Source: Trichuris trichiura
Lineage: Eukaryota > Nematoda > Enoplea > Trichinellida > Trichuridae
NCBI GenBank assembly: GCA_037903355.1
Contig: JBAJFE010000047.1
Span: 124,001-188,000, forward strand
DNA length: 64,000 bases
Direction: 5' to 3'
Positions within the stretch are counted from its first letter, which is position 1; every line of letters begins with the position of its first letter. A model generated the notes under the pieces. That model ran no database searches. It saw nothing but the letters and a program-made list of their open reading frames with translations, and was not told the DNA's origin. The translations under genes and the position numbers were made by a program. Positions 30,114 to 55,912 of the stretch are shown one piece after another.

Positions 30114-30467
30114 ATGAAAACCATTTCATTGCTTTCCTTCGTTCTTCTAGCAGCCAATATCGCCCATGGACAAAAACCCAGCGGCCAAAAAAGTAACCCA
30201 ACTGATGATTGCGACTTCCCGAAGGAAGGTGGTTCATGCAGGGACATTTTTGGGAAATGGTATTATGACCCACAGAAAAAAGAGTGCGTTATGTTAATTT
30301 TCGCGGGCTGCGACGGAACTGGATTCAATAATCAGAATCAGTGCAAGGATCGGTGTGCTACCAAAAACGAAACGAACGCCAGTCCGCCGGTTGTGCACCC
30401 AACGGTACAACAGCAGAACGGGCAACGGCCAGTCATCACCGCTATAAGGTTGACTGTTCGCAGATGA
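30114..30467 (+). CDS. Secreted Kunitz-type serine protease inhibitor, array copy 1
   Basis: A single-exon gene of 117 codons. Residues 1-19 (MKTISLLSFVLLAANIAHG) form a signal peptide, so the product is secreted. One Kunitz domain follows with cysteines at 33, 42, 58, 66, 77 and 81. The spacing (8, 15, 7, 10, 3) is that of the BPTI fold except for a two-residue shortening before the fifth cysteine. The residue after the second cysteine, the P1 site, is Arg, which predicts inhibition of trypsin-like proteases. The glycine before the fourth cysteine (FAGC) is kept here. The tail from residue 82 is Pro/Gln/Thr-rich and disordered-looking. In parasites such inhibitors often target host proteases, but the target here is not known. 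The start follows a TATA box by about 60 bases. Confidence 0.92.
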   Translation: MKTISLLSFVLLAANIAHGQKPSGQKSNPTDDCDFPKEGGSCRDIFGKWYYDPQKKECVMLIFAGCDGTGFNNQNQCKDRCATKNETNASPPVVHPTVQQQNGQRPVITAIRLTVRR

Positions 30468-34413: not shown

Positions 34414-34707
34414 GTGGCCAGTCGGAAGCAGAAAACGAGAGAGTGGCAGATCTTCTGTAACAGGAGGTCCGTAATTGTCCGTACAAGCAGTAATACTCAG
34501 CGGCTTGTCCCGTTTATTATATTACTTTGCGTTTTGGTAGGGTTGCATCAAGTTTCAGAACAGCTACCTGATTGCATTTGTTCCTTAGGTCAGCATCTCT
34601 CCACTTGTCATACCCTAGCTAAGACTATCCTTAAAGGGAACACTCGCGCGGGTTCGAGAGACGACTTGCTTGCTGCAACATGTTTTCCAAAGAAAAACTT
34701 TCCTTAA
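34414..34707 (+). CDS. Possible small secreted peptide ORF (weak)
   Basis: An open frame of 97 codons whose C-terminal 76 codons stay open in the diverged unit 2 copy (43505-43735) and are repeated exactly at 52476-52769. Within it FIILLCVLVGLHQVSEQ resembles a signal peptide, followed by CICSLGQHLSTC. The upstream part is not conserved and no TATA box is near, so the true start, if any, is unclear. Between units the changes are mostly amino-acid changing with a few silent ones, which fits weak or no constraint. It could be an exon of a secreted gene or chance. Confidence 0.2.
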   Translation: MASRKQKTREWQIFCNRRSVIVRTSSNTQRLVPFIILLCVLVGLHQVSEQLPDCICSLGQHLSTCHTLAKTILKGNTRAGSRDDLLAATCFPKKNFP

Positions 34708-35238
34708 TGCCCACACAATAGCAAATTTATCAGAAACGAATGCAAGGCGACCCTAGCAAAACAGTACAGTGTGCGTGAGTACCTGCTTAATGCTTATTCA
34801 TCAGAATCATTAATGTTTTGGGTACCAATAAAGGTAAACCGGTTTCGTGGTTTTCGCTTTCATCATTAGTCGACCCAAGAGGAGCATGTCAGCGCATGGA
34901 AATTTTATTTTTTCAAGTAAAATACGATGGGTCACATCATTTTTCAACGAAACTGACGAATTCTGCTGTGACTTTATAAGTCACACGTGCCGTCCTGATT
35001 CCTTCACTTACGACTCCTAAAAACAGTTCGTATGAGCACAATGAAAGATGAAACTTCCTGCGTATTATTATTTGAATTGATGCCTCCAACTGCTTAAATA
35101 ATCTGGTCAGTAAAGTTGATTGCTGATGCCGCATAGGTTAACCGCAATAAATGATTTGTTCAAATCAGTTTTAGTAACGTCATGAACAAGCACACATTTT
35201 CTTCGCACCAGTCTTCATATTTGCCTTACATGTCTTAC

Positions 35239-36103
35239 CTGTTTGAACAGTCCATCATACAGGACAAATAACCTCTCAATGGTTTATCACAGTCATTTCC
35301 AGGCGCTTTGTTGTTTACACATTTTGTTGTACCACTCAATTTATCTTGGCACTTTTCAGCCAAACATTTTGACAATGTTGTCTACAATAAAGGCACTAAC
35401 TTCAGGACGGACAGTGTGGTGCAGTTTCATACGATATGGCGCATGGAAACAGAGGAGCTTCATCTCCAACCATAGCTAACTCAAACCTTTCATTAATAAA
35501 CTGTTTATCTTTCTACAGACCATTAAATAATTTTGCAAACTACAAATTAATCAGTCTGCGTTTTCAACGGATGACCGCGTCATCCTACGGATGCTAGGTT
35601 GACATATGTCAACCTACTACATACCATCTCACGTTTCTAAGCATGTACGCAGCGATTCTGATTAATAATGAACAGTTCAAGACTCCCTATGCGAATAAGA
35701 ACAGTTATGAGTTCCATGTTAAAAAGACAAGCTTAAGAGAGTGGCTTTCGTTCCGCAGTATGATAGACTTTAATTGCCTCCGTGAAACATGCATTGCATC
35801 TTATTGTGGGCACAAAGAACTCTACAGGAAAAACGCTAACCTTGCGCTGTACATTATAAACGTAGACGGCTTAAACGGAACAAAACTTCGCTTCTGACTT
35901 ATATGGCTTCGAAGTAGCATAAAAGCAGATGAGCATGAGCAGGTATTGCACAGGAGTGGACAGCAGGATTAGAATGCAAGACTGGGCATCCAATATTAGC
36001 AACTGCTGCTTTCGCTCAATTAACTTACCGCAGATGTAATTTCAATTCCCTGCTGGAACAGGATAGCAAAGAGCATCAGTAGAGCAAAAGACTTCATCAT
36101 CAT
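35239..36103 (-). CDS. Secreted six-cysteine peptide, array copy 1 (two supported exons)
   Basis: Exon 1 (36103-36029) starts with three Met codons and encodes a 25-residue signal peptide (MMMKSFALLMLFAILF and on). It ends at GCG|GTAAGT in phase 0. A 647-base intron ends in TTATTGTAG. Exon 2 (35381-35239) encodes the mature peptide with cysteines at residues 31, 36, 46, 56, 66 and 70, a C-x4-C-x9-C-x9-C-x9-C-x3-C pattern. It ends in phase 2 at AG|GTAAGA. A possible last exon starts after CTGTTTTTAG at 35016 and adds a few codons to TGA at 35004, but this is uncertain. A TATA box lies at 36137-36144. I do not recognise the fold: it is not Kunitz, and the spacing does not fit ShK. Splice sites, frame and cysteines are all kept in the diverged unit 2 copy, which is the main support. 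Confidence 0.82.
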
Positions 36104-36136
36104 TGCTTGTGATCGCTTTTGTGGCTAATCCACCTG

Positions 36137-36144
36137 CTTTTATA
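36137..36144 (-). promoter_or_regulatory. TATA box of six-cysteine gene copy 1
   Basis: TATAAAAG on the minus strand, 34-41 bases before the ATG. The same box and spacing occur at 45169-45176 in unit 2 and 54199-54206 in unit 3. The 5' leader would be very short. Confidence 0.65.
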
Positions 36145-37074
36145 CAAAAATACTAAAGTGACTGCAACATGTGATGCCGCTTAATGTCCAGCTAAACAAA
36201 CTGAATTTTGCACATTGATAATGACTTACTCGCATAACTTCTATGCGATGCATACGTCCTCCTCTTGCTGAGGTTTGTCAAAACGTTAGCAACGTGTGTT
36301 TTAGTAAAAGCGGTGCACAACTGAGCAAACCTCCCACCCAAGAACTGCCAGAAGTATTGCAACTCTTTTATCAGTGTTTTGGAATGAACATTTGCTGTAT
36401 TCTTAGCATAATGAAAACTTTACTTCAGCTATTCGCCATGGTGCTCAAGAGAACTGTTGTTCAATATTTCAACAGTCATTACTCCGTCGAAGACACCACT
36501 TGAATAATGCATGATCCCAGTGATTGAATAGTGGATGCCATTCTCTGCTGATGATGGGTCGTGAGTGGTCCTGAAAACTTCAGGGTGCGCCGACGATTAA
36601 ACACCGTGCTACTAAGCTGAGGTGAGTGATGTTCACCTCAAATAATACTGACATTTTTATGATAGACTTTAGAGTGCAACATGTCCGTGATTTGACATTG
36701 AAGCTGAAATCAACTTTTCAAATTTAATTGCATCCCGCAGCGCACGCTGTTGCAGCGACTACTTCTTTAGTGCTCTGTCACACAAAATTATTTTGCTTTC
36801 CGCGAATGCCCTTTCTTGTTTCCGAAGAAAAACGTAATGTTAGAAAGATGCCACTGGTAGGTTACAGTTGAATATGTAACCCAAATAGTGGACGATATGA
36901 AATTGTAAGGAGCATATTGTCATAAATGAGACAGGTTATAAAAGTGTTACAAACAGACAGCGGAAAGAAGTGCCCGAAAACAGTTGTCAGACTATTATTC
37001 ATACACAAGTTACGTACAAACATATAAATACAACTTGCATCGTTTTGGAATTGAGAAATAGGAAAATGCTGACG

Positions 37075-37157
37075 GACTGGATGGCCGAGCGATCCAGAGG
37101 ACTGCGGCTAGGCTGCAGTCTATTTCGATGGGTGTGGGTTCAAATCCAGCTCCAGTC
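37075..37157 (+). pseudogene. Degenerate tRNA-Leu(UAG)-like sequence, unit 1
   Basis: An 83-base sequence that folds like a long-variable-arm tRNA. The seven-base acceptor arms GACTGGA and TCCAGTC are perfectly complementary. The D-arm region TGGCCGAGCGATC matches the polymerase III A box, and GGTTCAAATCC matches the B box. The anticodon stem CTGCG/TGCAG closes a loop with UAG at the anticodon position. Position 33 is C rather than the invariant U, and the T stem has mismatches, so it is probably not a working tRNA. It could instead be a tRNA-derived SINE head. Confidence 0.6.
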
Positions 37158-37673
37158 AACTCACAGAGCAACTTTCGTTAATGCGAATAGCGGTGAAATT
37201 TTATGTTTTCCTGCATATTGTTTATTTGTATCTCAATTATTATACGTATGTCTACCTTAACAGAATTGCATATTTCGGACAAGCGTAAGCAGCACGTTAC
37301 GGTGCAAGCTTTCGAGTTCAAGAAATTTTAGAGCTGGGACGGCTGTTGCCGGTCAGCTTGGCGCTGTGACTTAGACGATTACGGCTTCATTGGCAATGGA
37401 TCAAGCTGTTTAAAGGTAGACCTATCTGAAAAAAGTGTCGCTGTAAACTTAGGAAGTAATAAAATTGACCTCTGAAATTCAGTTCATCAGAAAAGTGTGC
37501 AAGTGCCCCGGAAATATTAGGTGAGTGTTCGCCTATGGAATTTCTTTACTTGCTTTAAATCGCCCTTTAGACAGCACTGTGCAAGGTGTTAAGTTGAACT
37601 GAAAGTTTACACCCGCTTTAATACGGTTATTTCAGTCCATTCTTTCGTCTACTCTCCCCAGAACTGTTGAAAT

Positions 37674-37850
37674 TGTAGGCTAGAAGTGACTCATCACCTG
37701 AACTGTCGATCTACGTGAGCATCTTTCTAAGTACTGTGTTATTCCTTTTTTGCGTGACCCAGTAAAGCGTGTAAGTTTCTTCTCTAGCGGTTGCACGACG
37801 AGCGCGTTTTGAATTATTCACCGCTACTATTATTTCTTCCCATAACAACA
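37674..37850. repeat. Direct repeat DR-b, unit 1
   Basis: Second copy of the 177-base direct repeat. It ends the six-cysteine module and abuts the start of unit 2. It is clearly diverged from DR-a but aligns over its whole length in the same orientation. Confidence 0.75.
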
Positions 37851-38809
37851 CTTGATAAGTATAGTTCGGTTAATGAGGTTTACCAGAATCAGACTATAAT
37901 ATGTAAACACGGTCGAAACTCCTAGAGCAATTGTTACCTGAACATCGCTACTTAGTTGCATCGCATTCTCGGTTTATTACGTTAACTACTACTGTGTTCG
38001 GATTAGTTGTTTCTTCACTAGTTCGAATTGAGGATAAATGTTCTGAAAAAATTTTAATCTTCCGTTGTACTCGTACCGTTTAAGCGCAACTGAGCTGATG
38101 CGCGCACTAACTGCTCCTCAGCGAGTGCAACGTGGAATGTTTGCGGACTAAGAAAAATTGATAAGCAAAAAGATTCTATTATCGAAGTTACTTTCGATAG
38201 ATCTTGTCTCCTAGGCCCTCTACTGTTATACTGTAGGTTTGCCATCTTGTCTTGCCCTTACCTAAGCCTAAGCCTAAACACAAGGTTTATTACTGTGCCT
38301 AGATTTGAGTAAGGAATAAAAAGGATGATTGCCAAGATGTCCAGTAAAGCCGCAACAAGCTCAAGGAATGCTTGCAAGAAAGGAACCTGCATTTCTCAGA
38401 AGGTGGGGCGGCTAGCAGACGAAATGCGTTTCGATAATGGAAACAGACGCTAAATTGTTTGAATTTGTTTAACAGAACCGAACTAACACGCAGCAACGCT
38501 GAAGTGTTAATGTACACAGAAAATTATTTCCTTCAAATAAACCAGCGAGAGTGCATTCAAATTGCGGGTCACATAAAGTTAAGAATTAAACTTGCGCGAA
38601 CTGTATGGAAGAGAAATTAGCAGTGCGACGTGAAATATAAAACTCACTATTGACTTTTTGTCATCGAAAGGCATTGTAAGCAAAATGATAGTGACTTTGA
38701 AAAAGTCAATCTCAAAAAACTACGCAAGGTAAAAGTTATTTTCCAGCTACCATGCTCAAAGCAAACAGAAATCATCCTTTCTTCGAAACGTAAGCGGCAA
38801 AGAGTAAGC

Positions 38810-38817
38810 TATAAAAA
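38810..38817 (+). promoter_or_regulatory. TATA box of Kunitz gene 2
   Basis: TATAAAAA, 62 bases before the ATG at 38872, as in the other array copies. Confidence 0.65.
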
Positions 38818-38871
38818 CAATGATCCTTTCTCGCTTTCATTTACTGCCACTGCAGAGATTAACAGCCCAGC

Positions 38872-39225
38872 ATGAAAACCATTTCGTTGCTTCTCTCCAT
38901 TCTTCTAGCAGCCAGCATTGCCCGTGGACACAAGTCCAAAAGCCAAAACGGTTACTCAAATGGTGGTGATTGTAACTTCCCGGAGGATGGTTCATGCAGG
39001 GGCATTTTTGGGAAATGGTATTATGATCCACAGAAAAAAGAGTGCGTCATGTTAATTTTCAGTGACTGCCACGGAAGTAGATTCGATGATGAGAACGAAT
39101 GCAAGAAGCGATGTGTTACTAAAAGCAAAACGAAAGCCAATCCGCCAGTTGAATACACAACGAAAGAACAGCCCAGGTTACAACGGCCAGTCATCTCCAC
39201 TATAATGTGGACTGTTCTCGGATGA
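38872..39225 (+). CDS. Secreted Kunitz-type serine protease inhibitor, array copy 2
   Basis: A single-exon gene of 117 codons, identical in sequence to copy 4. The signal peptide covers residues 1-19 (MKTISLLLSILLAASIARG). The Kunitz cysteines are at 34, 42, 58, 66, 77 and 81; the first loop is one residue shorter than in copy 1. P1 is Arg, followed by Gly. The stretch IFGKWYYDPQKKECVMLIF is the same as in copy 1, whereas the regions on both sides differ strongly. The usually conserved glycine before the fourth cysteine is replaced by Asp (FSDC), which may change the binding loop and raises the possibility of a target other than a classical trypsin-like protease. The tail is Lys/Thr/Pro-rich. 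Confidence 0.92.
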   Translation: MKTISLLLSILLAASIARGHKSKSQNGYSNGGDCNFPEDGSCRGIFGKWYYDPQKKECVMLIFSDCHGSRFDDENECKKRCVTKSKTKANPPVEYTTKEQPRLQRPVISTIMWTVLG

Positions 39226-39399
39226 ATATGAGGAGATTCTTCTACGAAATATATGCTAAAGCATGCGTAGCGTTTACGTTTATTGGCTGAGAAGAAAACG
39301 CGAGTATTTTACTCATTGAAGCTGCGCGTTCTGCAAAAGGTGCTTCTGTGCATCAAAGCAAACTTTTGTACGGCAAACAGACTTCCATCTAATATTAGT

Positions 39400-39657
39400 T
39401 TTGTAAAGGCGTATGGTTTGTAACGGGTTTGGTTGTTGAACAAGAGATGTACATGGATTTTTCCCGTTTGTATTTGCCCATAAAACGAGTCAAAAAAGTG
39501 AAAAAACTTTAATCTCGTTCAAGGGCGCGAGCTGAGCCGAAAGCTTCACCAGACTTGTGTTCGGTTTTATGCCCCTGAACGAGATTAAAGTTTTTCACTT
39601 TTTTGACTCGTTTTATGGGCAAATACAAACGGGAAAAATCCATGTACATCTCTTGTT
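39400..39657. mobile_element. 258 bp fold-back element with 10 bp target-site duplication, unit 2
   Basis: The element carries arms of 83 and 82 bases (39439-39521 and 39576-39657) that are reverse complements with a one-base indel, around a 54-base loop. It is flanked by the direct repeat TAATATTAGT at 39390-39399 and 39658-39667. Unit 4 has a single TAATATTAGT at the same place and no insert, so the empty site is visible. A second copy sits at the matching place in unit 3 (48431-48688). It has no coding capacity. Confidence 0.85.
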
Positions 39658-40329
39658 TAATATTAGTCTTTACACCATTTCTTTATGTCGGTTCAGATCT
39701 CTTATCACTACATGACGTTCGGTATGAATGTAATTCGTGGATCTCATTTCTTAGCCGCGTCGGTTTCATACAGCAACTTTACCGGCCTTCCTGTTATGAC
39801 ATTACCTAAGCCTAAGCGAAGCTAAGCACAAGGCGTAGGCTTAAGTAAAAGCAGAAGAAAGCAGCTAAGCATGCTTGTCAGAAAGGATTCTGCATGCATA
39901 GACAACTGGACAACTAATTTGCTTGTTGATTCCTTCCCTTCTTGTTGTACACTTATCTGCCCCTTTCATTGCAAGCTCATCAGCTAGCAAGGAGGTAGAA
40001 AAGAAGTTGTGAATGCTCAGAGCTGCCGTAGCGGATAGTCACCGTCTCCCGTGAATGGTGCTTTGTGAAAATTGTCTTAATACTATTCCAGAAATGGATG
40101 TTACATTGTCACCGTTGCGCTTTGGTTCTATGTTTCGTTTCCCGCTCATTGAATGCCTTAGAAAGAATGAAGTGTCTCATTCGAAAATATTTATTTGCCT
40201 TTCTTTTTTTACCGCATTGAAAGTGAAGCACCTTCTAACAGTAATTAGAAAAATCGTACTAGCGTGACGGAAGTTCGAACTGTGCAATTTTTATTTATTT
40301 CTGCCAAGCTTTCAGGAAGCATGATGGAA

Positions 40330-40508
40330 ATGTAGGTTAGAAATGACTCATCACCTGAACTGTCAGCCTACTTGAACGTCTTTTTAATTACTCTATTATT
40401 CCTTGTTTACGTGACTTCGTAAAACATGCAAGTTTCTTCTCTAGCGCTTGCGCCACGAGCGCGTGTTAAATTACTCACCTCTACTATTAATTTTTCCCAT
40501 AACAGCAA
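40330..40508. repeat. Direct repeat DR-a, unit 2
   Basis: Copy of the 177-base direct repeat between the Kunitz module and the six-cysteine module of unit 2; its partner is at 46706-46884. Confidence 0.75.
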
Positions 40509-43504
40509 GAACTACTTTAGTCTTCCATATTAATTTACTAGTATTAAGATGCTCTTTCATCTGTTTTTTCTCTTTGCTGAGATATTCGTCGTGTCCATAG
40601 CTACTATTTTTTTAAACTGTGTAAGGATACAGTCAATTTTCACACAGCTACGTTTCATGAGTTCAAACTGGGCTGCAGCGCAGCAATAACCGCCAGAAAC
40701 CTCCAGTCAGTCTGGGACCCACAGCGTTCCACTGAACGAACAGTGAACTGAAGTAATAAATTTGCGTCTCAAGCTACTGAAATCCAAGACAAGCTTAGTA
40801 GTGATCAGAGTTCAGTGCTGGATAATGAAGAAATATGTTCCGCCCAAAAGAAATATGAAGTTGGACAAATGTAATGCGTAACTCAGAAAGCGGTTAATGG
40901 AGATGGATTGAAGGCGGTGAATAAAGAAACTGATAAACTAAGAGTAAACATGAGTAAAGCGGCATATTTATGTTGAAGTAGAAAATGGCATAAATGATAG
41001 AAGAAGGTTAACTTACAGTTTACTGTCAGGGACCATGTCGACTAAAAACCCCACGAGTGAAATATTTTTGTTTTTTTAAATTTCTCATGTTGTAACAGGG
41101 ATTGATTTAGCATTTGTAATAACGGAACCCTGTAATAATATATCATAATAAACAGGGCAGATAGTCACTGGGGCATTTTAATGACGCATTTTAATAACGT
41201 TAAGATGTCTTCTACCTCTTGCGTTAGGATCACTTCGAAACCGCAATGGTGGTCCAATGTCGACGGTGTTCCATAAGCTGCCAGTAACGTCAGGTTTATA
41301 AGCAGCGTTTTTTCTCGGCGAAATCTTGTCTTAGAATAAGAAATGCACGTTCCCTTTTGCGTTTGTTACCAAATACTCATATGCTAAGCGCTCATCTTTT
41401 ATAAACCTGGCAATAGTGCCTTGTTTCCTAGCATATTTAATTTATCCAGTTGCAGTGAAAATTTCGCTATCCTTACGTTGTCGCACAACACGTTTTCCAT
41501 GCCTAAAGCGATCTCGTCAATTCGGCGTTAGTCCGTATTAACGTACACTTAATTTACTGAGGTATGTCAGCCGTTGCTTTTGCAAAACGCGTTATCATAA
41601 ACTGCACCTATAACTGGAATCAACAATTTTTCCCTAATCGGATTGCAACTGCATGAGTTTTGTAGTCAACAATGAAATGGAGTGGGATGCACACAAGCCC
41701 TTATCATCTCTTTTGAATATTCAACTGCTCTGAAGGATGATGCTGCAGGAACAATTACAAAGCATCCGAAGAGTATCGACCGCGTATAGTCAGAAAACGA
41801 TCTTGCTTTCTGTGCTTGTCATTATCGCTTGATTGCTGATGAGCTGCAGATATGCAGATTTGTATACCAGCAAACCCTTACGCATTAAGACGAAATTTCC
41901 CCTGGCTACCTCCAAATCTTAAAAACACAGCATGACCAAAATAATTTTAGTAACTTTGGATGCCAATTTAGCTGACGCAAACCGACAGAAAACTATTTCG
42001 GCGTAAGCAAAGTGCACTTTTCTCAAAGCCTTTAAGTGCCGTATGTCCAAAATCCTCTTATCAATAAGTTAGCGATAACTCCGCTTTACTTAGAGCAGAA
42101 GAAGAAGCATTTTTATATTATTTTCGAGGTGTACTAGTGGTCCACTGGAACACGCTATGATAGCGTATAATTCATACTAGTAACGGTGATCAATCGCAAC
42201 AATGAAAATAAACTCAGCAGCGCGATTTTACCGAAATTGTCCTACAAATGGTTTCCATTAAACCATCGTTGCCGCAGCTGGCAGAACACCATTTTAAACC
42301 AAATTAAGAAATCAGTGGCGGTTTACTCAATCCAACGGCTGTCCCTCTGTACCATAAAAATGTATTGATGTAGTACACAAATTTGTTAATGAAGGAAAAA
42401 TGCTGAATGAAACATGTGTAAAGCTTTGAAGAAAAATAGTTGAGTAAATGGTGCATCTGTAGTAATTTTATTGCTTTTAGTATAAACCACAGCAGTCTCT
42501 TACAATGTGAATAGCTGGAACACATTAAATTATAACGGATAAGCAATATTAGAAACACCAGAAAGTCAAAGTTGTTAAAGTTAGCATACTAATTTAAATG
42601 GTGAATGTGACATTAGCAATTGATGCCGAGTACAGCAAAATTCAGTTATCAAAGCTCGATGCCATTAAACTATCCAACACCAACTCCCGCTTGGCAAGAC
42701 TTCCAACCGGTGTTTGAAGACATATGATGCCGCGGAAGCTGCTTAATCAACTCCTAATATTTTAAATAGCATTTCTCTAGCATGTAAGTGTTCATTATTA
42801 ATATTCTTTAATATTATCAATCTTTAAGACGGCTTTGTATTGCTCGTTTTTCTTTTTTTGAAACCAGACTATACAGATCAACAACGAACTGATGGATGAG
42901 AGCCTAATAGAGAAACTTCAATGAAAAATTATTCTGGAGTTTTTCGCGTTACTTTGTCATGTCTTCAAAGCTGCTGTCAGTGAAGCTTTCACTGTGTCAC
43001 GTGGGTATGCATACGTCGAGAAGAGAGCTCCAGATGGTTCGGAGCAACACGCGCTTTTGTCCTTAGAGTATTCCAAATTACATTGGCCACTAACCTCTTC
43101 TCCCGGTTAATTGGCTTAATACTGAAAATGAACAACGACTGCAGCGTCTTCTAATATCAGCCTTTCGTAAATACAATGCATTGCAAATTCTGATACTTGT
43201 AAGCTTTCACAAAATTCTAACCGTTTATCTCATGCTGATAAGGATAAGATCGTTTAACTACATAATGCCATAACTTCCAGAACTTAAGTGCCCCGTTTCA
43301 TGGACCAGTGATCAGAATTGTAGCAGGGCCCAGTGAAATTGCAAAACTTGGCAACTATTCACTTAGTGTCTCCTATGTGGAACCTATTCAGTGCGCTGAT
43401 GACACACAGGTTTAAAACTTTTTCTTTCTCTACTTCCTGTTGTGGCTAGTTAGAAGCAGAAAACGAGAGAGTGACAAATATTCTATAACAGCAGGTGCGT
43501 AATT

Positions 43505-43735
43505 GTGTGTACAAGCAGTAATGCTCAGCGGCGTGTCTCGCTTCTTATATTACTTTGCGTTTTAGCAGGGGGTTACCAAGTTTCCGAACAGCTGCCTAAT
43601 TGCATTTGCTCCTTAGGTCAGCATCTCTCCACTTGTCATACCCTCGCTAAGACCATCCTTAAAGGGAACTTTCGCGCGGGTTCGAGGGACGACTTGCTTG
43701 CTGTAACATATTTTCGAAAGAAAAACTTTCCTTAA
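43505..43735 (+). CDS. Possible small secreted peptide ORF (weak), unit 2 copy
   Basis: Homologue of the frame at 34414-34707, open over 76 codons with a hydrophobic stretch (LLILLCVLAGGYQVSEQ) followed by the same CICSLGQHLSTC motif. Thirteen residues differ from the unit 1 copy. There is no clear promoter. The call is kept only because the frame stays open after divergence. Confidence 0.2.
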   Translation: MCTSSNAQRRVSLLILLCVLAGGYQVSEQLPNCICSLGQHLSTCHTLAKTILKGNFRAGSRDDLLAVTYFRKKNFP

Positions 43736-44265
43736 TGCCCTCAGAGTAGCAAATTTAGCAGAAACGAATGCAGGCGGCCCTTGCAAAACGGTACAGTGTA
43801 CGTGAGTACCTGCTTAATGCTCCTTCATCAGATGCATGAATGTTTTAGGTACCAATAAAGGTGAACCGAAATCATGGTTCGCGCTTTCAGCATTAGTCAA
43901 ACCAAGAGGAGCATATCAGCGCGTGTAAATTTACTTTTTCAGATGAAATACGATGGGTCACATCATTTTTCAATGAAACCGACGAATTCTGCGGCTACTT
44001 TATAAGTCCCACGCGCCGTCCTGATTCGTTCACTTACGACTCCTAAAAACAGTTCGTATGAGCACAGTGGAAGATGAAAACTTCTTGCTTATTATTATTT
44101 GAATTGATGCCTCCAACTGCTTAAATAATCTGGTGAATAAAGTTGATTGCTGATGCCGCATAGCTCAACTGCAATAAATGATTTGTTCGAATCAGTTTTA
44201 GTAACTTCATGAATAAGCACACATTTTCTTCGCACCAATTTTCATATTTGCATTACATGTCTTAC

Positions 44266-45135
44266 CCGTTCGAACAGCTCCTCATGCAATCCATGTAGCC
44301 TTTAAATTGGTCATCACAGTTCGTTCCATGCGCTTTGCTTTTTACACATTTTGCTGCACCAGACAATTTACTTTTGCAATTTTTATCCAAACATTGTGAC
44401 ATTGTTTGCTGCAATAATGACACTAACTTCACGGACAGTGTGCTGCAGTTTCATACTATATAGGGCATGGAAACAAAGGTGCTTCATCTCCAACCATAGC
44501 TAATTCAAACGTTTCAATAATCAACTGCTTATCTGTCTTCAGATCATTAAATAATTTTGCAAACTACAAGCTAATCAGTCTGCGTATTAAACGGATGACA
44601 GCGTCATCTTTCTACGGATGCTGGCTGGGTAAACGTACGTTAACGTACTACGTCCCATCCCACGTTTCTAAGCATGTGCCCAACGATTCTTATTAGTAAG
44701 GAACAGTTAAGGACTTGCTATGCGAATAAGAACAGTTATGAGTTCCATGTGAAAAAGATAAGCTTAAGAGAAGGGCTTCAGTTCCGCAGCATGATGCACT
44801 TTAATTGCCCCCATGAAACATCCATTGCATCTTACTGTGAGTACCAAGAGCTCACCAGCAAAAACGCTAACCTTGCGCTGTACGTTATAAAAGTAGAGGG
44901 CTCAAACGAAACGAACGCTCATTTCAGATTTATGTGGCTTTGAAGTAGCATAAAAGCAGATGAGCATGCACAAGTATTGCACAGGAGTGGACAGAAGAAT
45001 TAGAATGCAATACTGGCGCGTTCAATACTACAAACTGCTGCTTTCGCTCAATTAACTTACCGCCGCTGTAATTTCACTTCCCTGCTGGAACAAAATAGCA
45101 AACAGCATCAGTAGAGCAAAGGACTTCATCATCAT
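44266..45135 (-). CDS. Secreted six-cysteine peptide, array copy 2 (divergent)
   Basis: Exon 1 (45135-45061) encodes a signal peptide that differs from copy 1 at two residues with four silent changes. It ends at GCG|GTAAGT. Exon 2 (44408-44266) follows TTATTGCAG and is the same length as in copy 1 (143 bases, ending in phase 2 at GG|GTAAGA). All six cysteines and the C-x4-C-x9-C-x9-C-x9-C-x3-C spacing are kept, yet 23 of 47 codons change the amino acid and only five differ silently. A TATA box lies at 45169-45176. Keeping splice sites, length and cysteines despite such divergence argues for a real gene under diversifying selection. The function is unknown. Confidence 0.82.
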
Positions 45136-46108
45136 TGCTTGTGATCGTCGTTGAGACTTCTCCACCCGCTTTTATACAAAAATACTAAAATGAATGTCGC
45201 GGGTGATATCGCTTAACGTCCAGCTAAACAAACTGAATTTCCCACATTGATGATGACTTATTCGCCTAACTTCTATGCCACGCATACATCCTTCGCTTGC
45301 TCAGGTTTATAAAAATATTAGCAACGTTTATTTTAGTAAAAGCGATATACAACTGAGCAAACCTCCCGCGCAAGAACTGCCAGAAGTATTGCAACTCTTT
45401 TATCAGTATTTTGGAATGAACACTTGCTGTATTCTCAGCATAATAAAAGGTTTACTTCAGCTATTCGCCAAGGTGTTCAAGAGAACTGTTGTTCAATATT
45501 TCAACATTCATTACTCCGTCGAAAGCACCATTTGAATAAGCCATGATCCCAACGATTGAATAGTGGATGCCATTCTCTGGTGATGACGGCTCGTGAGTGG
45601 ACCAGAAAACTTCAGGGTGCGTTGACGATTAAGCATTGTGCTACAAAGCTGAGGCAAGTAATGTTCGCCTCTAGTAATACTGGCATTTTTATGATAGACT
45701 GTAGAGTGGAACATGTCCGTGATTAGACATTGAAGCTGAAGTCAACTTTTCAAATTTCATTGCATCCCGCAGCGGAGGCTGTTGCAGCGACTACTTCTTT
45801 AGTGCTCTGTCACAAAAAATTATTTTGCTTTCCGCGAATGCCCTTTCTTGTTTCCGAAGAAAAACGTAATGTTAGAAAGATGCCACTGGTAGGTTACAGT
45901 TGAATATGTAAAATCCAAATGGTGGACGATATGAAATTGTAAGGAGCATATTGTCATAAATGAGACAGGTTATGAAAGTGTTACAAGCAGACAGCGGAAA
46001 AAAGTGTCCGAAAACAGTTGTCGGAGTATTATTCATACACAAGTTAAGTAGAAACATACAAATACAACTTCCATCGTTTTGGAATTGAGAAATAGGAAAA
46101 TGCAGACG

Positions 46109-46191
46109 GATTGGATGGCCGAGCGATCCAAGGCACTGCGGCTAGGCTGCATTCTATTTCGATGGGCGTAGGTTCAAATCCAGCTCCAGTC
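46109..46191 (+). pseudogene. Degenerate tRNA-Leu(UAG)-like sequence, unit 2
   Basis: The 83-base homologue of 37075-37157. Its D arm (CCAAGGC) is closer to a normal tRNA than the unit 1 copy, but the acceptor stem has one G-T pair (GATTGGA with TCCAGTC) and the anticodon stem and position 33 are still aberrant. A and B boxes are recognisable. Confidence 0.55.
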
Positions 46192-46705
46192 AACTCACAG
46201 AGCAATATTCGTTAATGCGAATAGCGGTGAAATTTTATGTTTTCCAGCATATTCTTCATTTGTATCTCAATTATTATACGTATGTCTGCCTTAACAGAAT
46301 TGCATATTTCGGACAAGCGTAAGCAGCACGTTACGGTTCAAGCTTTCGAGTTCAAGAATATTTAGAGCTGAGACGGCTGTTGCTAGTCAGCTTAGCGCTG
46401 TGACATAAACGATTACGGCTTCATTGGCAATGGATCAAGCTGTTTAAACGTAGATCTATCTGAAAGGAGTGTCGCTGTGAACGTAGGAAGTAGTAAAATT
46501 GATCTCTGAAATTCAGTTCATCAGAAAAGTGTAGAAGTGACCTGGAAATATTAGGTGAATGTTCGCCTATGGAATTGCTTTACGTGCTTTAAATCGCTCT
46601 TCAGACAGCACTGCGCAAGGTGTTAAGTTGAACTGAAAGTTTACACCCGCTTTAATACGGTTATTTCAGTCCATTCTTTCGTCTACTCTCCCCAGAACTG
46701 TTGAA

Positions 46706-46884
46706 ATTGTAGGCTAGAAGTGACTCATCACCCGAACTGTCGATCTACGTGAACATCTTTCTAAGTACTGTGTTATTCCTTTTTTGCGTGACCCAGTAAA
46801 GCGTGTAAGTTTCTTCTCTAGCGGTTGCACGACGAGCGCGTTTCGAATTATTCACCTCTACTATTATTTCTTCCCATAACAACA
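46706..46884. repeat. Direct repeat DR-b, unit 2
   Basis: Second copy of the 177-base direct repeat in unit 2, abutting the start of unit 3. Confidence 0.75.
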
Positions 46885-47903
46885 CTTGATAAGTATAGTT
46901 CGGTTAATGAGGTTTACTATAATCAGATTATCATATGTAATTACGGTAGAAACTCGTAGAACAATTGTTACCTGAACCTCGCTACTTCGTTGCGACGCAT
47001 TCTCGGTTTATTACGTTAACTATTTCTGTGTTCGTTTTAATTGTTTCTTCACTAGTTCGAATTGAGGATAAATGTTCTGAAAAATGTTAATCTTCCGTTG
47101 TACTTGTACCGTTTAAGCACAACTGAGATGATGCGCGCACTAACTCCTTTTCAACGAGTACAACGTGGAATGTTTGTGGACTAAGAAAACTTGATAAGCA
47201 AAAGGATTCTATTATCGAAGTTACTTTTGATAGATCTTGTCTCCTAGGCCGTCTACTGTTATACTGTAGGTTTGCCATCTTGTCCTGCCCTTAGCTAAGC
47301 CTAAGCGTAAACACAAGGTTCATTTCTGAGCCTAGTTTTGAGTAAGGAATAAAAAGGATGATTGCCAAGATGTCCAGTAAAGCCGCAACAAGCTCAAGGA
47401 ATGCTTGCAAGAAAGGAACCTGCATTTCTCAGGAAGGGAGGCGGGTAAGTGACGAGATCCGTTTTGGTAATCGAAACAAACAGAAAAATTTTTGAATTTG
47501 TTTAACAGAACTGAACTAACATGCCGCAACGCTGAAGTGTTACTCTACACAAAAAATGATTTCTATCAATTAAACCAACCAGGCTGTGTTCAAACTGCCG
47601 AGCACGTAAGCTTGAAAATTAAACTTGCGCGAACTGCGCAGGAGAGAAACCAGCAGAGCGACACGAGTTAAAAAAATCATAATTGCCATTTTGTCATCGA
47701 AAGGCATTGTAAGCAAAATGATAGTGTTTTTGAAAAAGTCAGTTGCATAAAACTAGGCACGGTAAAAGTTATTTTCCAACTGCCATGCTCAAAGCAAACA
47801 GAAATCGTCCTTTTTTCGAAACATAAGCGGCAAAGAGTAAGCTATAAAAAGATGATCCTTTCTCGCTTTCATTTACTGCTATTGCAGAGATTAACAACTC
47901 GGC

Positions 47904-48256
47904 ATGAAAACCATTTCGTTGCTTTCTCCGTTCTTCTAGCAGCCAGCATTGAAGGTGGACACAAGTCCAAAAGCCAAAAAGGTTACTCAACTGGTGGTGA
48001 TTGCGACTTCCCGGAGGATGGTTCATGCAGGGGCATTTTTGGGAAATGGTATTATGATCCACAGAAAAAAGAGTGCGTCATGTTAATTTTCAGTGACTGC
48101 CACGAAAGTAGATTCGATGATGAGAGCGAATGAAAGAAGCGATATGGTACTAAAAGCAAAACGAAAGCCAGTCCGCCAGTTGAATACACAACGAAAAAAC
48201 AGCCCAGGTTACAACGGCCAGTCATCTCCACTATAATGTGGACTGTTCTCGGATGA
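47904..48256 (+). pseudogene. Kunitz inhibitor pseudogene, array copy 3
   Basis: The homologue of the other Kunitz genes with three disabling differences. A one-base deletion in the signal-peptide region (within about 47923-47930) shifts the frame soon after the ATG at 47904. The fifth cysteine codon has become TGA at 48131. The sixth cysteine codon has become Tyr. The TATA box at 47843-47850 is intact. A different ATG at 47852, in what is leader sequence in the other copies, opens a frame that enters the Kunitz frame after the deletion, but it still stops at the TGA before the last two cysteines. Such a product would lack two of three disulphides, so loss of inhibitor function is likely. Confidence 0.88.
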
Positions 48257-48430
48257 ATATGAGAAGATTCTTCTACGAAATATATGCTAAAGCATGCGTA
48301 GCGTTTACGTTTATTGGCTGAGATGGAAACGTGACTGTGTTACTGACTGAAGCTGCGCGCTCTGCAAAATGTGCTTCTGTGCGGCAAAGTAAACTTCTGT
48401 ACGGCAAACTGATTTCTATCTAATATTAGT

Positions 48431-48688
48431 TTTGTAAAGGCGTACGGTTTGTAACGGGTTTGGTTGTTGAACAAGGGATGTACATGGATTTTTCCCATTT
48501 TTATTTGCCCATAAAACGAGTCAAAAAAGTGAAAAAACTTTAATCTCGTTCAAGGGCGCGAGCTGAGCCGAAAGCTTCACCAGACTTGTGTTCGGTTTTA
48601 TGCCCCTGAACGAGATTAAAGTTTTTCACTTTTTTGACTCGTTTTATGGGCAAATACAAACGGGAAAAATCCATGTACATCTCTTGTT
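48431..48688. mobile_element. 258 bp fold-back element, unit 3 copy
   Basis: At the same site as the unit 2 insertion, with the same TAATATTAGT duplication on both sides. It has a few differences in its left 70 bases and is identical to the unit 2 copy afterwards. Confidence 0.85.
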
Positions 48689-49233
48689 TAATATTAGTCT
48701 TTACACCATTTCTTTATGTCGGTTCAGATCTCTTATCACTACATGACGTTCGGTATGAATGTAATTCGTGGATCTCATTTCTTAGCCGCGTCGGTTTCAT
48801 ACAGCAACTTTACCGGCCTTCCTGTTATGACATTACCTAAGCCTAAGCGAAGCTAAGCACAAGGCGTAGGCTTAAGTAAAAGCAGAAGAAAGCAGCTAAG
48901 CATGCTTGTCAGAAAGGATTCTGCATGCATAGACAACTGGACAACTAATTTGCTTGTTGATTCCTTCCCTTCTTGTTGTACACTTATCTGCCCCTTTCAT
49001 TGCAAGCTCATCAGCTAGCAAGGAGGTAGAAAAGAAGTTGTGAATGCTCAGAGCTGCCGTAGCGGATAGTCACCGTCTCCCGTGAATGGTGCTTTGTGAA
49101 AATTGTCTTAATACTATTCCAGAAATGGATGTTACATTGTCACCGTTGCGCTTTGGTTCTATGTTTCGTTTCCCGCTCATTGAATGCCTTAGAAAGAATG
49201 AAGTGTCTCATTCGAAAATATTTATTTGCCTTT
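48502..49233. repeat. 732 bp block identical to 39471-40202
   Basis: Units 2 and 3 match without a difference across this stretch at an offset of 9,031 bases, whereas sequences on either side differ by several percent. This suggests a gene-conversion tract or exchange between neighbouring units. Confidence 0.75.
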
Positions 49234-49360
49234 CCTTTTTTACCCCATTGAAAGTAAGGCACCTTCTAACAGTAATGAGAAAAATCGTAATGGCGTGACG
49301 GAAGTTCGAACAGTGCAATTTTTATTTATTTCTGCCAAGCTTTCAGGAAGCTTGATGGAA

Positions 49361-49540
49361 ATGTAGGTTAGAAATGACTCATCACCTGAACTGTCAGCCT
49401 ACTTGAACGTCTTTTTAATTACTGTATTATTCCTTGTTTACGTGACTTCGTAAAACATGTAAGTTTCTTCTCTAGCGGTTGCGCCACGAGCGCGCGCTAA
49501 ATTACCCACCTCTACTATTATTTTTTCCCTTAACAGCAAG
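49361..49540. repeat. Direct repeat DR-a, unit 3
   Basis: Copy of the 177-base direct repeat between the two modules of unit 3; its partner is at 55736-55912. Confidence 0.75.
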
Positions 49541-52475
49541 AACTGCTTTAGTCTTCCATATTAATTTACTGGTATTACGATGTTCTTTCATCTATTTTTT
49601 CTCTTTGCTGAGATATTCGTCGTGTCCATAGCTACTATGTTTTTAAACTACGGATGGATACAGTCAATTTTCACACAGCTACGTTTCATGAGTTCAAACT
49701 GGGCTGCGGCGCAGCCATAACCGCCAGAAACCTCCAGTCAGTCTGGGACCCACAGCGTTCCACTGAACGAACACTGAACTGAAGTAATAAATTTGCGTCT
49801 CAAGCTACTGAAATCCAAGACAAGCTTAGTAGTGATCAGAGTTCAGTGCTGGATAATGAAGAATTATGTTCTGCCCAAAAGAAATATGAAGTTGGACAAA
49901 TGTAATGCATAACTTAGAAATAGGTTAATGGAGATGGATTGAAGGCGTTGAATAAAGAAACTGATAAACTAAGAGTAAACATGAGTAAAGCGGGATATTT
50001 ATGTTGAAGTAGGAAATGGCATAAATGATAGAAGAAAGTTAACTTACAGTTTACTGTCAGAGACCGTGTCAATCAAAAAGCCCAACAAGCACAATTTTTG
50101 TACTTTTAAATTTCTCACGTTGTAACAGGGATTGATTTAGCATTTGTAATAACGGAACCCTGTAATGATATGTCATAATAAACAGGGCAGATGGTCACTG
50201 GGGCATTTTAATGACGCAGTCGAACGCTAAGATGACTCCTACCTCTTGCATTAGGATCACTTCGAAACCGCAGCGGTTGCCCAATGTCGAAGGTGTTAAA
50301 TAAGCTGCCAGTAACGTCAGATTTATAAACGGTGTTTTTTCTCAGCGAAATCTTGTCTTAGAATAAGAAATGCACGTTCGCTTTTGCGTCTGTTACCAAC
50401 TACTCCTATGCTAAGCGCTCATCTGTTATAAACCTGGCAATAGCGCCTTGTTTCCTAGCAGATTTAATTTATCCAGTTGCAGTGAAAATTTCGCTATCCT
50501 TACGCTGTCTCACAACACGTTTTCCATGCCTTCAGCGATCTCGCCAATTCGACATTGGTCTGTATTAACGTACGCTTAATTTTCTGAGGTATGTCAGCCG
50601 TTGGTTTTGCAAAACGCGTTATCAAGAACTGCACCTATTACTGAAATCAACAATTTTTCCCTAATCGGATTGCAATTGCATGAGTTTTGTAGTCAACAAT
50701 GAAATGAAGTGGGATGCACACAAGCCCTTATCATCTCTTTTGAATATTCAACTGCTCTGAAGGCTGCTGCTGCAGGAACAATTACAAAGCATCTGAAGAG
50801 TATCGACCGCGTATTGTTAGAAAACGATCTTGCTTTCTGTGCTTGTTATTATTGCTTGATTGCTGATGAGCTGCAGATATGCAGATTTGTTTACTAGCAA
50901 ACCCTTACGCATTAAGACGAAATTTCCCCAGGCTATCTCCAAATCCTAAAAACACAGCATGACCAAAATAATTTAGTAACATTGGATGCCAATTTAGCTG
51001 ACGCGAACTGACTGAAAACTAATTCAGCGTAAGCAAAGTGCACTTTTTTGATAGACCTTAAGTTCGGCATGTCCAAATCCCCTTATCAATAAGTTAGCGA
51101 TAAGTCCGCTTTACTTAGAGTAGAAAAAGAAGCATTTTTATATTATTTTCGAGAAGGTGTACTAGTGGTCCACTGGAACACGCTATGATAGCGTATAATT
51201 CATGCTAGTAACGGTATTCTATCACAACAATGGAAATATACTCAGCAGCACGATTTCACCGAAATTTTTCTACAACTGGTTTCCATTAAACCATCGTTGC
51301 CGCAGCTAGCAGAACACCACTTTAAACCAAATTAAGAAATCAGCGGCGGTTTAATCAATCCAACAGCTGTCCCTCCCTACCATAAAAATGTATTGGTGCA
51401 GTACACAAATTTGTTAATGAAGAAAAAATGCTGAATGAAACATTTGTAAAGCTTTGAAGAAAAACAGCTGAGAAAATGGTAAATCTGTCGTAATTTTATT
51501 GCTTTTAGTATAAACCGCAGCAATCTCTTACAATGTGAATGGCTGGAACGCATTAAATTATAACGGATAAGCATTATTAGAAACACCAGAAATTCAAGGC
51601 TGTTAAAGTTAGCATACTAATTTAAATGGTGAATGTAACATTAGCAATTGATGTCGAGCACAGCAAAATTCAGTTATCAAAGCTCGATGCCATTAAACTT
51701 TTCAACACCATTTCCCGCTTGGCAAGACTTCCAACCGGTTTTTGAAGACATATAATGCCGCGGAAGCTGCTTAATCAGCTCCTAGCATTTTAAATAGCAT
51801 TTCTCTAGCATGTAAGTGTTCATTATTAATATTCTTTAATATTATTAATCTTTAGGAGAGCTTTGTATTGCTCATTTTTCTTTTTTTGAAACCAGACTAT
51901 ACAGACGAACAATGAACTGATGGATGAGAGCCTAATAGAGGAACTTCAATGAAAAATTATTCTGGAGTTTTTCGCATTACTTTGTCATGTCCTCAAATAT
52001 GCCGCCAGTGAAGCTTTTACAGTGTCACGTGGGTATGCATGCATACGTCGAGAAGGGACCTCCAGATGGTTCGGAGCAACAAGCGCTTTTGTCCTTAGAG
52101 TATTCCAAATCACATTGGCCACTAACCCCTTCTCCCATTTAATTGGCTTAATATTGAAAATGAACAGCGACTGCAACGTCTTTTAATATCAACCTTTCGT
52201 AACTACAATACATTGCAAGTTCTGATATTTGTAAGCTTTCACAAAATTCTAACCGTTTACCTCATGCTGCTACGGATAAGATCGCTTAACTACATAATGC
52301 CATAACTTCCTGAACTTGGACTTGCCTCGTTTCATGGACCGGTGATCAGAATTGTAGCAGCGCACAGTGAAATTGCAGAACTTGGCAACTATTCACTTAG
52401 TGTCTCCTAGGTGCAACCTATTCAGTGCGCTGATGACACACAGGTTTAAAACGTTTTCTTTATCTACTTCCCGTT

Positions 52476-52769
52476 GTGGCCAGTCGGAAGCAGAAAACGA
52501 GAGAGTGGCAGATCTTCTGTAACAGGAGGTCCGTAATTGTCCGTACAAGCAGTAATACTCAGCGGCTTGTCCCGTTTATTATATTACTTTGCGTTTTGGT
52601 AGGGTTGCATCAAGTTTCAGAACAGCTACCTGATTGCATTTGTTCCTTAGGTCAGCATCTCTCCACTTGTCATACCCTAGCTAAGACTATCCTTAAAGGG
52701 AACACTCGCGCGGGTTCGAGAGACGACTTGCTTGCTGCAACATGTTTTCCAAAGAAAAACTTTCCTTAA
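52476..52769 (+). CDS. Possible small secreted peptide ORF (weak), unit 3 copy
   Basis: Exact copy of 34414-34707 within the 7.0 kb duplicated block; it adds no independent support. Confidence 0.2.
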   Translation: MASRKQKTREWQIFCNRRSVIVRTSSNTQRLVPFIILLCVLVGLHQVSEQLPDCICSLGQHLSTCHTLAKTILKGNTRAGSRDDLLAATCFPKKNFP

Positions 52770-53300
52770 TGCCCACACAATAGCAAATTTATCAGAAACG
52801 AATGCAAGGCGACCCTAGCAAAACAGTACAGTGTGCGTGAGTACCTGCTTAATGCTTATTCATCAGAATCATTAATGTTTTGGGTACCAATAAAGGTAAA
52901 CCGGTTTCGTGGTTTTCGCTTTCATCATTAGTCGACCCAAGAGGAGCATGTCAGCGCATGGAAATTTTATTTTTTCAAGTAAAATACGATGGGTCACATC
53001 ATTTTTCAACGAAACTGACGAATTCTGCTGTGACTTTATAAGTCACACGTGCCGTCCTGATTCCTTCACTTACGACTCCTAAAAACAGTTCGTATGAGCA
53101 CAATGAAAGATGAAACTTCCTGCGTATTATTATTTGAATTGATGCCTCCAACTGCTTAAATAATCTGGTCAGTAAAGTTGATTGCTGATGCCGCATAGGT
53201 TAACCGCAATAAATGATTTGTTCAAATCAGTTTTAGTAACGTCATGAACAAGCACACATTTTCTTCGCACCAGTCTTCATATTTGCCTTACATGTCTTAC

Positions 53301-54165
53301 CTGTTTGAACAGTCCATCATACAGGACAAATAACCTCTCAATGGTTTATCACAGTCATTTCCAGGCGCTTTGTTGTTTACACATTTTGTTGTACCACTCA
53401 ATTTATCTTGGCACTTTTCAGCCAAACATTTTGACAATGTTGTCTACAATAAAGGCACTAACTTCAGGACGGACAGTGTGGTGCAGTTTCATACGATATG
53501 GCGCATGGAAACAGAGGAGCTTCATCTCCAACCATAGCTAACTCAAACCTTTCATTAATAAACTGTTTATCTTTCTACAGACCATTAAATAATTTTGCAA
53601 ACTACAAATTAATCAGTCTGCGTTTTCAACGGATGACCGCGTCATCCTACGGATGCTAGGTTGACATATGTCAACCTACTACATACCATCTCACGTTTCT
53701 AAGCATGTACGCAGCGATTCTGATTAATAATGAACAGTTCAAGACTCCCTATGCGAATAAGAACAGTTATGAGTTCCATGTTAAAAAGACAAGCTTAAGA
53801 GAGTGGCTTTCGTTCCGCAGTATGATAGACTTTAATTGCCTCCGTGAAACATGCATTGCATCTTATTGTGGGCACAAAGAACTCTACAGGAAAAACGCTA
53901 ACCTTGCGCTGTACATTATAAACGTAGACGGCTTAAACGGAACAAAACTTCGCTTCTGACTTATATGGCTTCGAAGTAGCATAAAAGCAGATGAGCATGA
54001 GCAGGTATTGCACAGGAGTGGACAGCAGGATTAGAATGCAAGACTGGGCATCCAATATTAGCAACTGCTGCTTTCGCTCAATTAACTTACCGCAGATGTA
54101 ATTTCAATTCCCTGCTGGAACAGGATAGCAAAGAGCATCAGTAGAGCAAAAGACTTCATCATCAT
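53301..54165 (-). CDS. Secreted six-cysteine peptide, array copy 3 (identical to copy 1)
   Basis: Exon 1 is 54165-54091 and exon 2 is 53443-53301, sequence-identical to copy 1 because both lie in the 7.0 kb duplicated block. The TATA box is at 54199-54206. The signal peptide, six-cysteine pattern and splice sites are as described for copy 1. If the block is an assembly duplication, the genome has only two distinct genes of this family here. Confidence 0.78.
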
Positions 54166-55136
54166 TGCTTGTGATCGCTTTTGTGGCTAATCCACCTGCT
54201 TTTATACAAAAATACTAAAGTGACTGCAACATGTGATGCCGCTTAATGTCCAGCTAAACAAACTGAATTTTGCACATTGATAATGACTTACTCGCATAAC
54301 TTCTATGCGATGCATACGTCCTCCTCTTGCTGAGGTTTGTCAAAACGTTAGCAACGTGTGTTTTAGTAAAAGCGGTGCACAACTGAGCAAACCTCCCACC
54401 CAAGAACTGCCAGAAGTATTGCAACTCTTTTATCAGTGTTTTGGAATGAACATTTGCTGTATTCTTAGCATAATGAAAACTTTACTTCAGCTATTCGCCA
54501 TGGTGCTCAAGAGAACTGTTGTTCAATATTTCAACAGTCATTACTCCGTCGAAGACACCACTTGAATAATGCATGATCCCAGTGATTGAATAGTGGATGC
54601 CATTCTCTGCTGATGATGGGTCGTGAGTGGTCCTGAAAACTTCAGGGTGCGCCGACGATTAAACACCGTGCTACTAAGCTGAGGTGAGTGATGTTCACCT
54701 CAAATAATACTGACATTTTTATGATAGACTTTAGAGTGCAACATGTCCGTGATTTGACATTGAAGCTGAAATCAACTTTTCAAATTTAATTGCATCCCGC
54801 AGCGCACGCTGTTGCAGCGACTACTTCTTTAGTGCTCTGTCACACAAAATTATTTTGCTTTCCGCGAATGCCCTTTCTTGTTTCCGAAGAAAAACGTAAT
54901 GTTAGAAAGATGCCACTGGTAGGTTACAGTTGAATATGTAACCCAAATAGTGGACGATATGAAATTGTAAGGAGCATATTGTCATAAATGAGACAGGTTA
55001 TAAAAGTGTTACAAACAGACAGCGGAAAGAAGTGCCCGAAAACAGTTGTCAGACTATTATTCATACACAAGTTACGTACAAACATATAAATACAACTTGC
55101 ATCGTTTTGGAATTGAGAAATAGGAAAATGCTGACG

Positions 55137-55219
55137 GACTGGATGGCCAAGCGATCCAGAGGACTGCGGCTAGGCTGCAGTCTATTTCGATGGGTGTGGG
55201 TTCAAATCCAGCTCCAGTC
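55137..55219 (+). pseudogene. Degenerate tRNA-Leu(UAG)-like sequence, unit 3
   Basis: Copy of 37075-37157 with the single G-to-A difference of the duplicated block, which falls in the A-box region (GCCGAG to GCCAAG). Confidence 0.55.
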
Positions 55220-55735
55220 AACTCACAGAGCAACTTTCGTTAATGCGAATAGCGGTGAAATTTTATGTTTTCCTGCATATTGTTTATTTGTATCTCAATT
55301 ATTATACGTATGTCTACCTTAACAGAATTGCATATTTCGGACAAGCGTAAGCAGCACGTTACGGTGCAAGCTTTCGAGTTCAAGAAATTTTAGAGCTGGG
55401 ACGGCTGTTGCCGGTCAGCTTGGCGCTGTGACTTAGACGATTACGGCTTCATTGGCAATGGATCAAGCTGTTTAAAGGTAGACCTATCTGAAAAAAGTGT
55501 CGCTGTAAACTTAGGAAGTAATAAAATTGACCTCTGAAATTCAGTTCATCAGAAAAGTGTGCAAGTGCCCCGGAAATATTAGGTGAGTGTTCGCCTATGG
55601 AATTTCTTTACTTGCTTTAAATCGCCCTTTAGACAGCACTGTGCAAGGTGTTAAGTTGAACTGAAAGTTTACACCCGCTTTAATACGGTTATTTCAGTCC
55701 ATTCTTTCGTCTACTCTCCCCAGAACTGTTGAAAT

Positions 55736-55912
55736 TGTAGGCTAGAAGTGACTCATCACCTGAACTGTCGATCTACGTGAGCATCTTTCTAAGTACTGTG
55801 TTATTCCTTTTTTGCGTGACCCAGTAAAGCGTGTAAGTTTCTTCTCTAGCGGTTGCACGACGAGCGCGTTTTGAATTATTCACCGCTACTATTATTTCTT
55901 CCCATAACAACA
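55736..55912. repeat. Direct repeat DR-b, unit 3
   Basis: Last copy of the 177-base direct repeat, abutting the partial fourth unit. Confidence 0.75.

Follow-up and report, generated by a model that had tools for sequence, protein, structure and literature searches.

A family of genes for putatively secreted, six-cysteine peptides with a predicted hairpin fold, apparently undescribed, in Trichuris trichiura

A stretch of 64,000 nucleotides of Trichuris trichiura DNA, referred to here as the window, contains three minus-strand genes (36103-35239, 45135-44266 and 54165-53301), one in each of three units of a tandem array with units of about 9 kb, that a first-pass annotation had proposed to encode secreted six-cysteine peptides under diversifying selection. 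The locus raises the question of whether these short exons belong to working genes, which fold the encoded peptides might adopt, and why the mature exon has changed so much while its cysteines have stayed in place.

Gene structure and the tandem array

The gene anatomy that had been proposed was found in all three copies: each has a TATA box of the same sequence (TATAAAAG, minus strand), a signal-like exon of 75 bases that ends at GTAAGT, and an exon of 143 bases that encodes six cysteines. In copy 1, the TATA box is located at 36137-36144, exon 1 (25 codons, phase 0) at 36029-36103 and exon 2, which encodes the putative mature peptide, at 35239-35381; the corresponding positions are 45169-45176, 45061-45135 and 44266-44408 in copy 2, and 54199-54206, 54091-54165 and 53301-53443 in copy 3, all on the minus strand. 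Intron 1 has a length of 647-652 bases. Judged by eye, exon 1 encodes a peptide with the shape of a signal peptide, that is, a lysine, a long hydrophobic run and an alanine at the junction. The cysteine pattern of exon 2 occurs three times in the window, each time inside one of these genes, and it was absent from every one of 60 windows resampled with a first-order Markov model; its occurrence is not due to chance. It should be noted that the three loci represent only two sequences, because copy 3, in both exons and throughout the gene, is identical to copy 1 and was rejected as an independent sequence.

The description of the genes as two-exon genes has to be revised, since exon 2 is directly followed by a splice donor (AG/GTAAG in copy 1, AG/GTAAG or GG/GTAAG among the three copies, the slash marking the splice site), and a third exon is likely. 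It would start at TTTTTAG/GAGTC and give the peptide the ending SN(R/G)SRK, followed by the stop codon. The acceptor CTGTTTTTAG/GAGTCGTAAGTGA lies 222-223 bases past exon 2, which is the length of the predicted intron 2, and leads to the SRK tail and a stop codon in each of the copies, with predicted coding starts of exon 3 at 35004-35016, 44030-44042 and 53066-53078 (minus strand). Retention of this intron is predicted to result in a stop two bases beyond exon 2 in copies 1 to 3. The splice sites are common to two paralogues on another contig (C2), both of which have a stop codon within exon 2, yet retain a similar donor and acceptor; in these paralogues, the predicted pair would then bound an intron of the 3' untranslated region, and the C2a version of the predicted intron comprises 79 bases with both ends intact. 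At all eight family loci described below, the last cysteine is followed by a donor-like site and there are several candidate acceptors; of the three candidates at C48b, one would, in our reading, give a short basic tail and then an in-frame stop. An AATAAA at 34909 was considered as a poly(A) signal but was rejected as a firm one, being absent downstream of copy 2.

The array begins about 29 kb into the window with a repeat length of about 9,030 bases, and the part that carries the three peptide genes extends from 30639 to 57464. The mean difference over the whole unit is 8.7% between units 1 and 2, and 1.3% between units 1 and 3. Unit 3 (48700-57464) is a mosaic: its initial 450 bases are exactly those of unit 2, and a single substitution separates it from unit 1 over the interval that corresponds to about 32432-39402 in unit 1. 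Gene conversion, unequal crossing-over or an effect of the assembly is indicated by this structure. A 225-base inverted pair is present at unit ends (39436-39660 and 48467-48691), and a 186-base repeat occurs twice per unit. The array also contains Kunitz-domain genes that consist of one exon and have a signal-like start; there is about one in every unit, on the strand opposite to the six-cysteine genes (30114-30467, 38872-39225 and around 57033, plus strand), and a second divergence peak between units 1 and 2, reaching 20%, is located upstream of a Kunitz gene (38419-38718). The Kunitz gene of unit 2 (47672-48130, plus strand) looks broken, with no aligned start and a stop before the last two cysteines. 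Just past the window, a locus with two adjacent Kunitz domains (L047:1794-2126, minus strand) contrasts with the single-domain genes of the array.

The gene family and its predicted fold

The genome (72.7 Mb in 62 contigs) was searched with five different family members, and the locus counts are lower bounds. An intact mature exon was found at no fewer than eight loci on three contigs, which comprise seven distinct sequences: the three window copies on contig C19, two loci on C2 (2429972, plus strand, and 2414672, minus strand) and three on C48 (269510, 275692 and 288380, all on the plus strand). This distribution is best explained by growth of a multigene family through tandem and dispersed duplication. 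The pattern C-x4-C-x9-C-x(8-10)-C-x9-C-x3-C is present in all seven distinct mature sequences, the middle loop alone varying, and one tyrosine and one methionine are also invariant. The net charge of the seven mature peptides is +3 to +6, copies 1 and 2 being counted with the SRK tail. Signal-like exons in phase 0, ending with GTAAG, were recognized by eye at seven of the eight loci, the exception being C48a, for which none was detected. No additional occurrence of a relaxed version of the cysteine pattern was seen in the window or the fetched genome loci, and candidates of borderline significance on C39, C34 and C1 (E 0.10 to 0.26), which do not have the cysteine pattern, were rejected.

Contig C48 additionally carries, in the stretch L043, a decayed family copy (260599, plus strand) and a signal-like exon (263877-263945, minus strand) with no recognizable mature exon within about 2 kb, the intron of which contains a repeat that recurs upstream of C48a; both are excluded from the counts of seven and eight. 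Such remnants, and the signal exon undetected at C48a, would be expected if noncoding DNA or decayed copies had been misread as working genes. Nevertheless, this explanation is extremely unlikely, considering that the open frames, splice sites and cysteine spacings survive in copies with a difference of up to 33% in intron 1, and that the resampled windows are devoid of the pattern.

The mature peptide is predicted to form a twin-CX9C helical hairpin with an additional outer cysteine pair. AlphaFold2 was run on two-sequence alignments from the window, the folded members being copies 1 and 2, and predicted helices at residues 3-24 and 32-46 (pLDDT 86.6) or, with the other sequence first, at 3-23 and 32-47 (pLDDT 86.4); both two-helix models contain helices only and have a pTM of 0.56-0.57. 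In both helices, residue identity follows the side that bears the cysteines (P 0.014 and 0.026 in permutation tests), and the disulfides would pair C1-C6, C2-C5 and C3-C4. Mdm35 and the bc1 hinge protein are among the structural neighbours of the predicted hairpin. The Pfam CHCH family was matched below threshold by two of the five members scanned (best E 1.2e-4, best score 22.3 bits versus a gathering cut-off of 27.2) and by none of ten cysteine-fixed shuffles. When the genome was searched with PF06747, copy 2 was eighth and C2a twelfth among 13 matches, both under the cut-off.

The proposal that the family is undescribed agrees with the searches made, on which it rests. Neither a single protein nor a five-member alignment had a word-level match among about 5.8 billion proteins. 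This collection includes nematodes, as the 11 best rows for an ORF of the window identified as trehalose-phosphate synthase (20820-21896, Glyco_transf_20) are all from nematodes, which does not in itself establish coverage of Trichuris. However, the absence of homologues is weak evidence, because short divergent peptides are easily missed by word matching. Searches of the PDB gave a best E of 0.8 with a single sequence and of 0.14 with the alignment (cytochrome b-c1 subunit 6, in addition to Mdm35 and TRIAP1), none of which is significant. No Pfam family was matched at the gathering cut-off by the five of seven distinct sequences scanned (all except C48b and C48c), nothing reached the gathering score in Rfam, and the tRNA search returned none. 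In the literature, nothing was found that combines Trichuris, CHCH and secreted, and the titles and abstract openings of the matches listed do not describe the hairpin family. A twin-CX9C scaffold serving as a secreted peptide was not found described, and the family is apparently undescribed.

Substitution rates in the mature exon and the introns

Between copies 1 and 2, the codon counts that had been reported proved to be exact, with four silent and two replacement codons of 25 in exon 1 (7 of 75 bases differ) and five silent and 23 replacement codons of 47 in exon 2; likewise, the DNA difference of about 26% in exon 2 was reproduced (37 of 143 bases, 25.9%). In contrast, the value of about 9% given for the adjacent intron was not reproduced: intron 1 differs at 89 of 644 positions (13.8%) and intron 2 at 15 of 222 (6.8%), or 12.0% when pooled, and 8.7% is the mean over the whole 9-kb unit. 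The difference in exon 2 exceeds that of the pooled introns (Fisher P 4e-5). A conserved signal-like exon versus a fast mature exon was also borne out: pN is 0.034 for exon 1 and 0.268 for exon 2, and in comparisons with C2a the values are 0.12 and 0.27-0.28, respectively.

For the rate tests, copy 3 was excluded throughout, and gapped codons as well as the C48 copies were excluded from the pairwise comparison. A joint maximum-likelihood fit included copy 1, copy 2 and C2a, with 47 exon-2 codons and 691 intron columns, and excluded C2b, the C48 copies, one insertion codon of C2a and gapped intron columns. Equal rates in exon and intron, which had been named beforehand as the outcome that would speak against the proposal, were not seen: replacement substitutions in exon 2 occur at 2.09 times the rate of the introns (LRT P 8.5e-5). 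The silent rate of exon 2 is 1.70 times the intron rate, which is not significant (P 0.15), and replacement and silent rates do not differ (omega 1.23, P 0.58). Over six pairs, omega ranges from 0.58 to 1.40, and the three pairs that include C2b have no significant excess of exon 2 over intron. Thus, the mature exon outpaces intron DNA in the closer pairs, and positive selection is unproven. Of the diversifying selection proposed initially, the elevated replacement rate remains, but dN/dS was rejected as a proof of it.

These values have to be weighed against an explanation without adaptive diversification, according to which exon 2 has a higher mutation rate or a longer history than its flanks, since conversion homogenized the introns and spared the exon, and the copies drift within the cysteine frame. 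A mutation rate peculiar to the exon, or a greater age of the exon next to converted introns, would be compatible with the silent rate and the omega value. Furthermore, divergence is not confined to exon 2, as the 13 windows of 150 bases that cover the gene region (34380-36320) differ by 6 to 18%, 11 of them by more than 11%, compared with the mean of the unit given above; and the mosaic identity of unit 3 is in line with conversion or unequal crossing-over within the array. However, relaxed constraint alone should not raise the replacement rate above that of the intron, and the six cysteines, their spacings (with a middle loop of 8-10 residues), the tyrosine and the methionine are fixed throughout the family. 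In view of both sides, drift of this kind is unlikely to be the explanation.

Possible roles of the peptides and comparison with known systems

On balance, it is probable that the family consists of secreted hairpin peptides that act outside the worm, either directed at the host or as antimicrobials. For the secretion that we infer, exon 1 would be the signal peptide, with cleavage at or near the exon junction, and therefore exon 2, in some copies together with the short basic tail encoded by exon 3, would constitute the mature peptide. This peptide would be oxidized in the secretory pathway, where three disulfides would clamp an antiparallel hairpin, and the cationic hairpin would then be released to act outside the worm. 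The scaffold would stay constant, with the remaining residues varying and, in the closer copies, doing so at a higher rate than the introns. A stiff hairpin, stapled by disulfides and presenting variable residues on a constant frame, would suit a ligand for a moving external target, and a mature part that changes faster than the introns between close copies is expected of molecules that act on the host or on microbes. As the target, a host surface protein or channel is tentatively placed slightly ahead of gut microbes, and a function within the worm would be the chief alternative.

The fast evolution could alternatively reflect an internal function in the worm, such as reproduction or signalling, as such peptides can also evolve fast, and a role of this kind would be compatible with everything in the sequence. 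The Kunitz-domain genes with signal-like starts in the array units fit a secreted set and argue, albeit weakly, against it; however, the sequence retrieved around the C2 and C48 copies yielded no Kunitz match. Taken together, a role within the worm seems quite unlikely.

If the peptides are released, as we prefer to assume, they might act as cationic stapled hairpins on gut microbes. The positive charge of all seven mature peptides would fit, and plant alpha-hairpinins are hairpin-shaped peptides that serve defence; an antimicrobial function nevertheless appears somewhat unlikely. In excerpts of a phylum-wide survey (PMC10506718), the set of antimicrobial peptides is reduced in clade 2/I, which includes Trichuris and Trichinella, and divergent ones may have been missed by the BLAST/HMM pipeline of that survey. 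The antimicrobial option is more interesting because this clade is reported to have few known antimicrobial peptides and perhaps divergent ones (PMC10506718, in the excerpts). A far-reaching possibility, which we regard as quite improbable, is that a nematode lineage has turned the twin-CX9C hairpin into a secreted, additionally stapled, cationic effector or antimicrobial family with a locked scaffold and a surface under adaptive diversification, the boldest part being descent from mitochondrial CHCH proteins and not convergence. If this were true, the family would be among the candidates for 'missing' antimicrobial peptides of a gut-dwelling clade-I worm. If the peptides are secreted as proposed, a parasitic worm would release a definable group of peptides that are short and probably stable, easily missed because each exon is short, and these would be testable candidates for host manipulation or for the handling of microbes in clade I, with its few known antimicrobial peptides (as outlined in the excerpts of PMC10506718). 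In that case, a twin-CX9C hairpin would also operate in the secretory pathway.

The worm peptides resemble CHCH proteins (PF06747, e.g., Mdm35 and the bc1 hinge protein) in having two C-x9-C motifs, in all seven distinct sequences; an antiparallel helical hairpin, as predicted for copies 1 and 2 (pLDDT 86-87), may be a further common point. In CHCH proteins, the outer cysteines are paired with each other, as are the inner ones, which the putative disulfides of the worm peptides would match. The twin-CX9C hairpin is best known from the mitochondrial intermembrane space, and CHCH proteins lack a secretory signal and are imported into mitochondria. In contrast, a hydrophobic signal-like exon 1 was recognized by eye at seven of eight loci in the worm, and the peptides have an extra outer cysteine pair, a loop of 8-10 residues and a Pfam score below the cut-off. 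Because of this score and the signal-like exon, the family was not classed as CHCH.

The framework of kappa-KTx toxins and alpha-hairpinins is C-x3-C ... C-x3-C, unlike the spacings of 4, 9, 8-10, 9 and 3 in all seven worm sequences. A small, disulfide-held helical hairpin, which is predicted in the worm and putatively secreted, is a feature shared with kappa-KTx, acrorhagin I, toxin B-IV, alpha-hairpinins and conotoxin im23a, as far as the latter are described in excerpts of PMC11722136 and PMC4278219. Nevertheless, these toxins and defence peptides have other cysteine frameworks and no sequence relation to the family in the searches made; the disulfides of im23a are I-II, III-IV and V-VI (excerpts of PMC4278219), and B-IV and acrorhagin I have four disulfides (excerpts of PMC11722136). 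Nematode antimicrobial peptides of the CS-alpha-beta type differ from the family in that the models predicted here are helix-only, and no defensin-type Pfam match was obtained for the five members scanned; for nemapores and other saposin-like proteins, the difference is that saposin is not among the four Pfam families matched by these five of seven members.

Conotoxin-type superfamilies are characterized by a common signal sequence, a characteristic cysteine frame and variable mature residues (excerpts of PMC4278219). The worm genes share with them a conserved signal-like exon, a variable mature region and cysteines fixed in all seven sequences, but no separate propeptide was seen, omega is not significantly above 1, and there is a single scaffold. 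HYP effectors are secreted nematode proteins that have a variable region and lack a Pfam domain (excerpts of PMC11228951), and the worm peptides, putatively secreted as well, resemble them in both their variable region and the lack of a Pfam domain at the cut-off. However, variation of the HYP effectors involves rearranged motifs (PMC11228951, in the same excerpts), whereas the hairpin peptides vary by substitutions and by loop insertions or deletions of one or two codons within a fixed cysteine frame.
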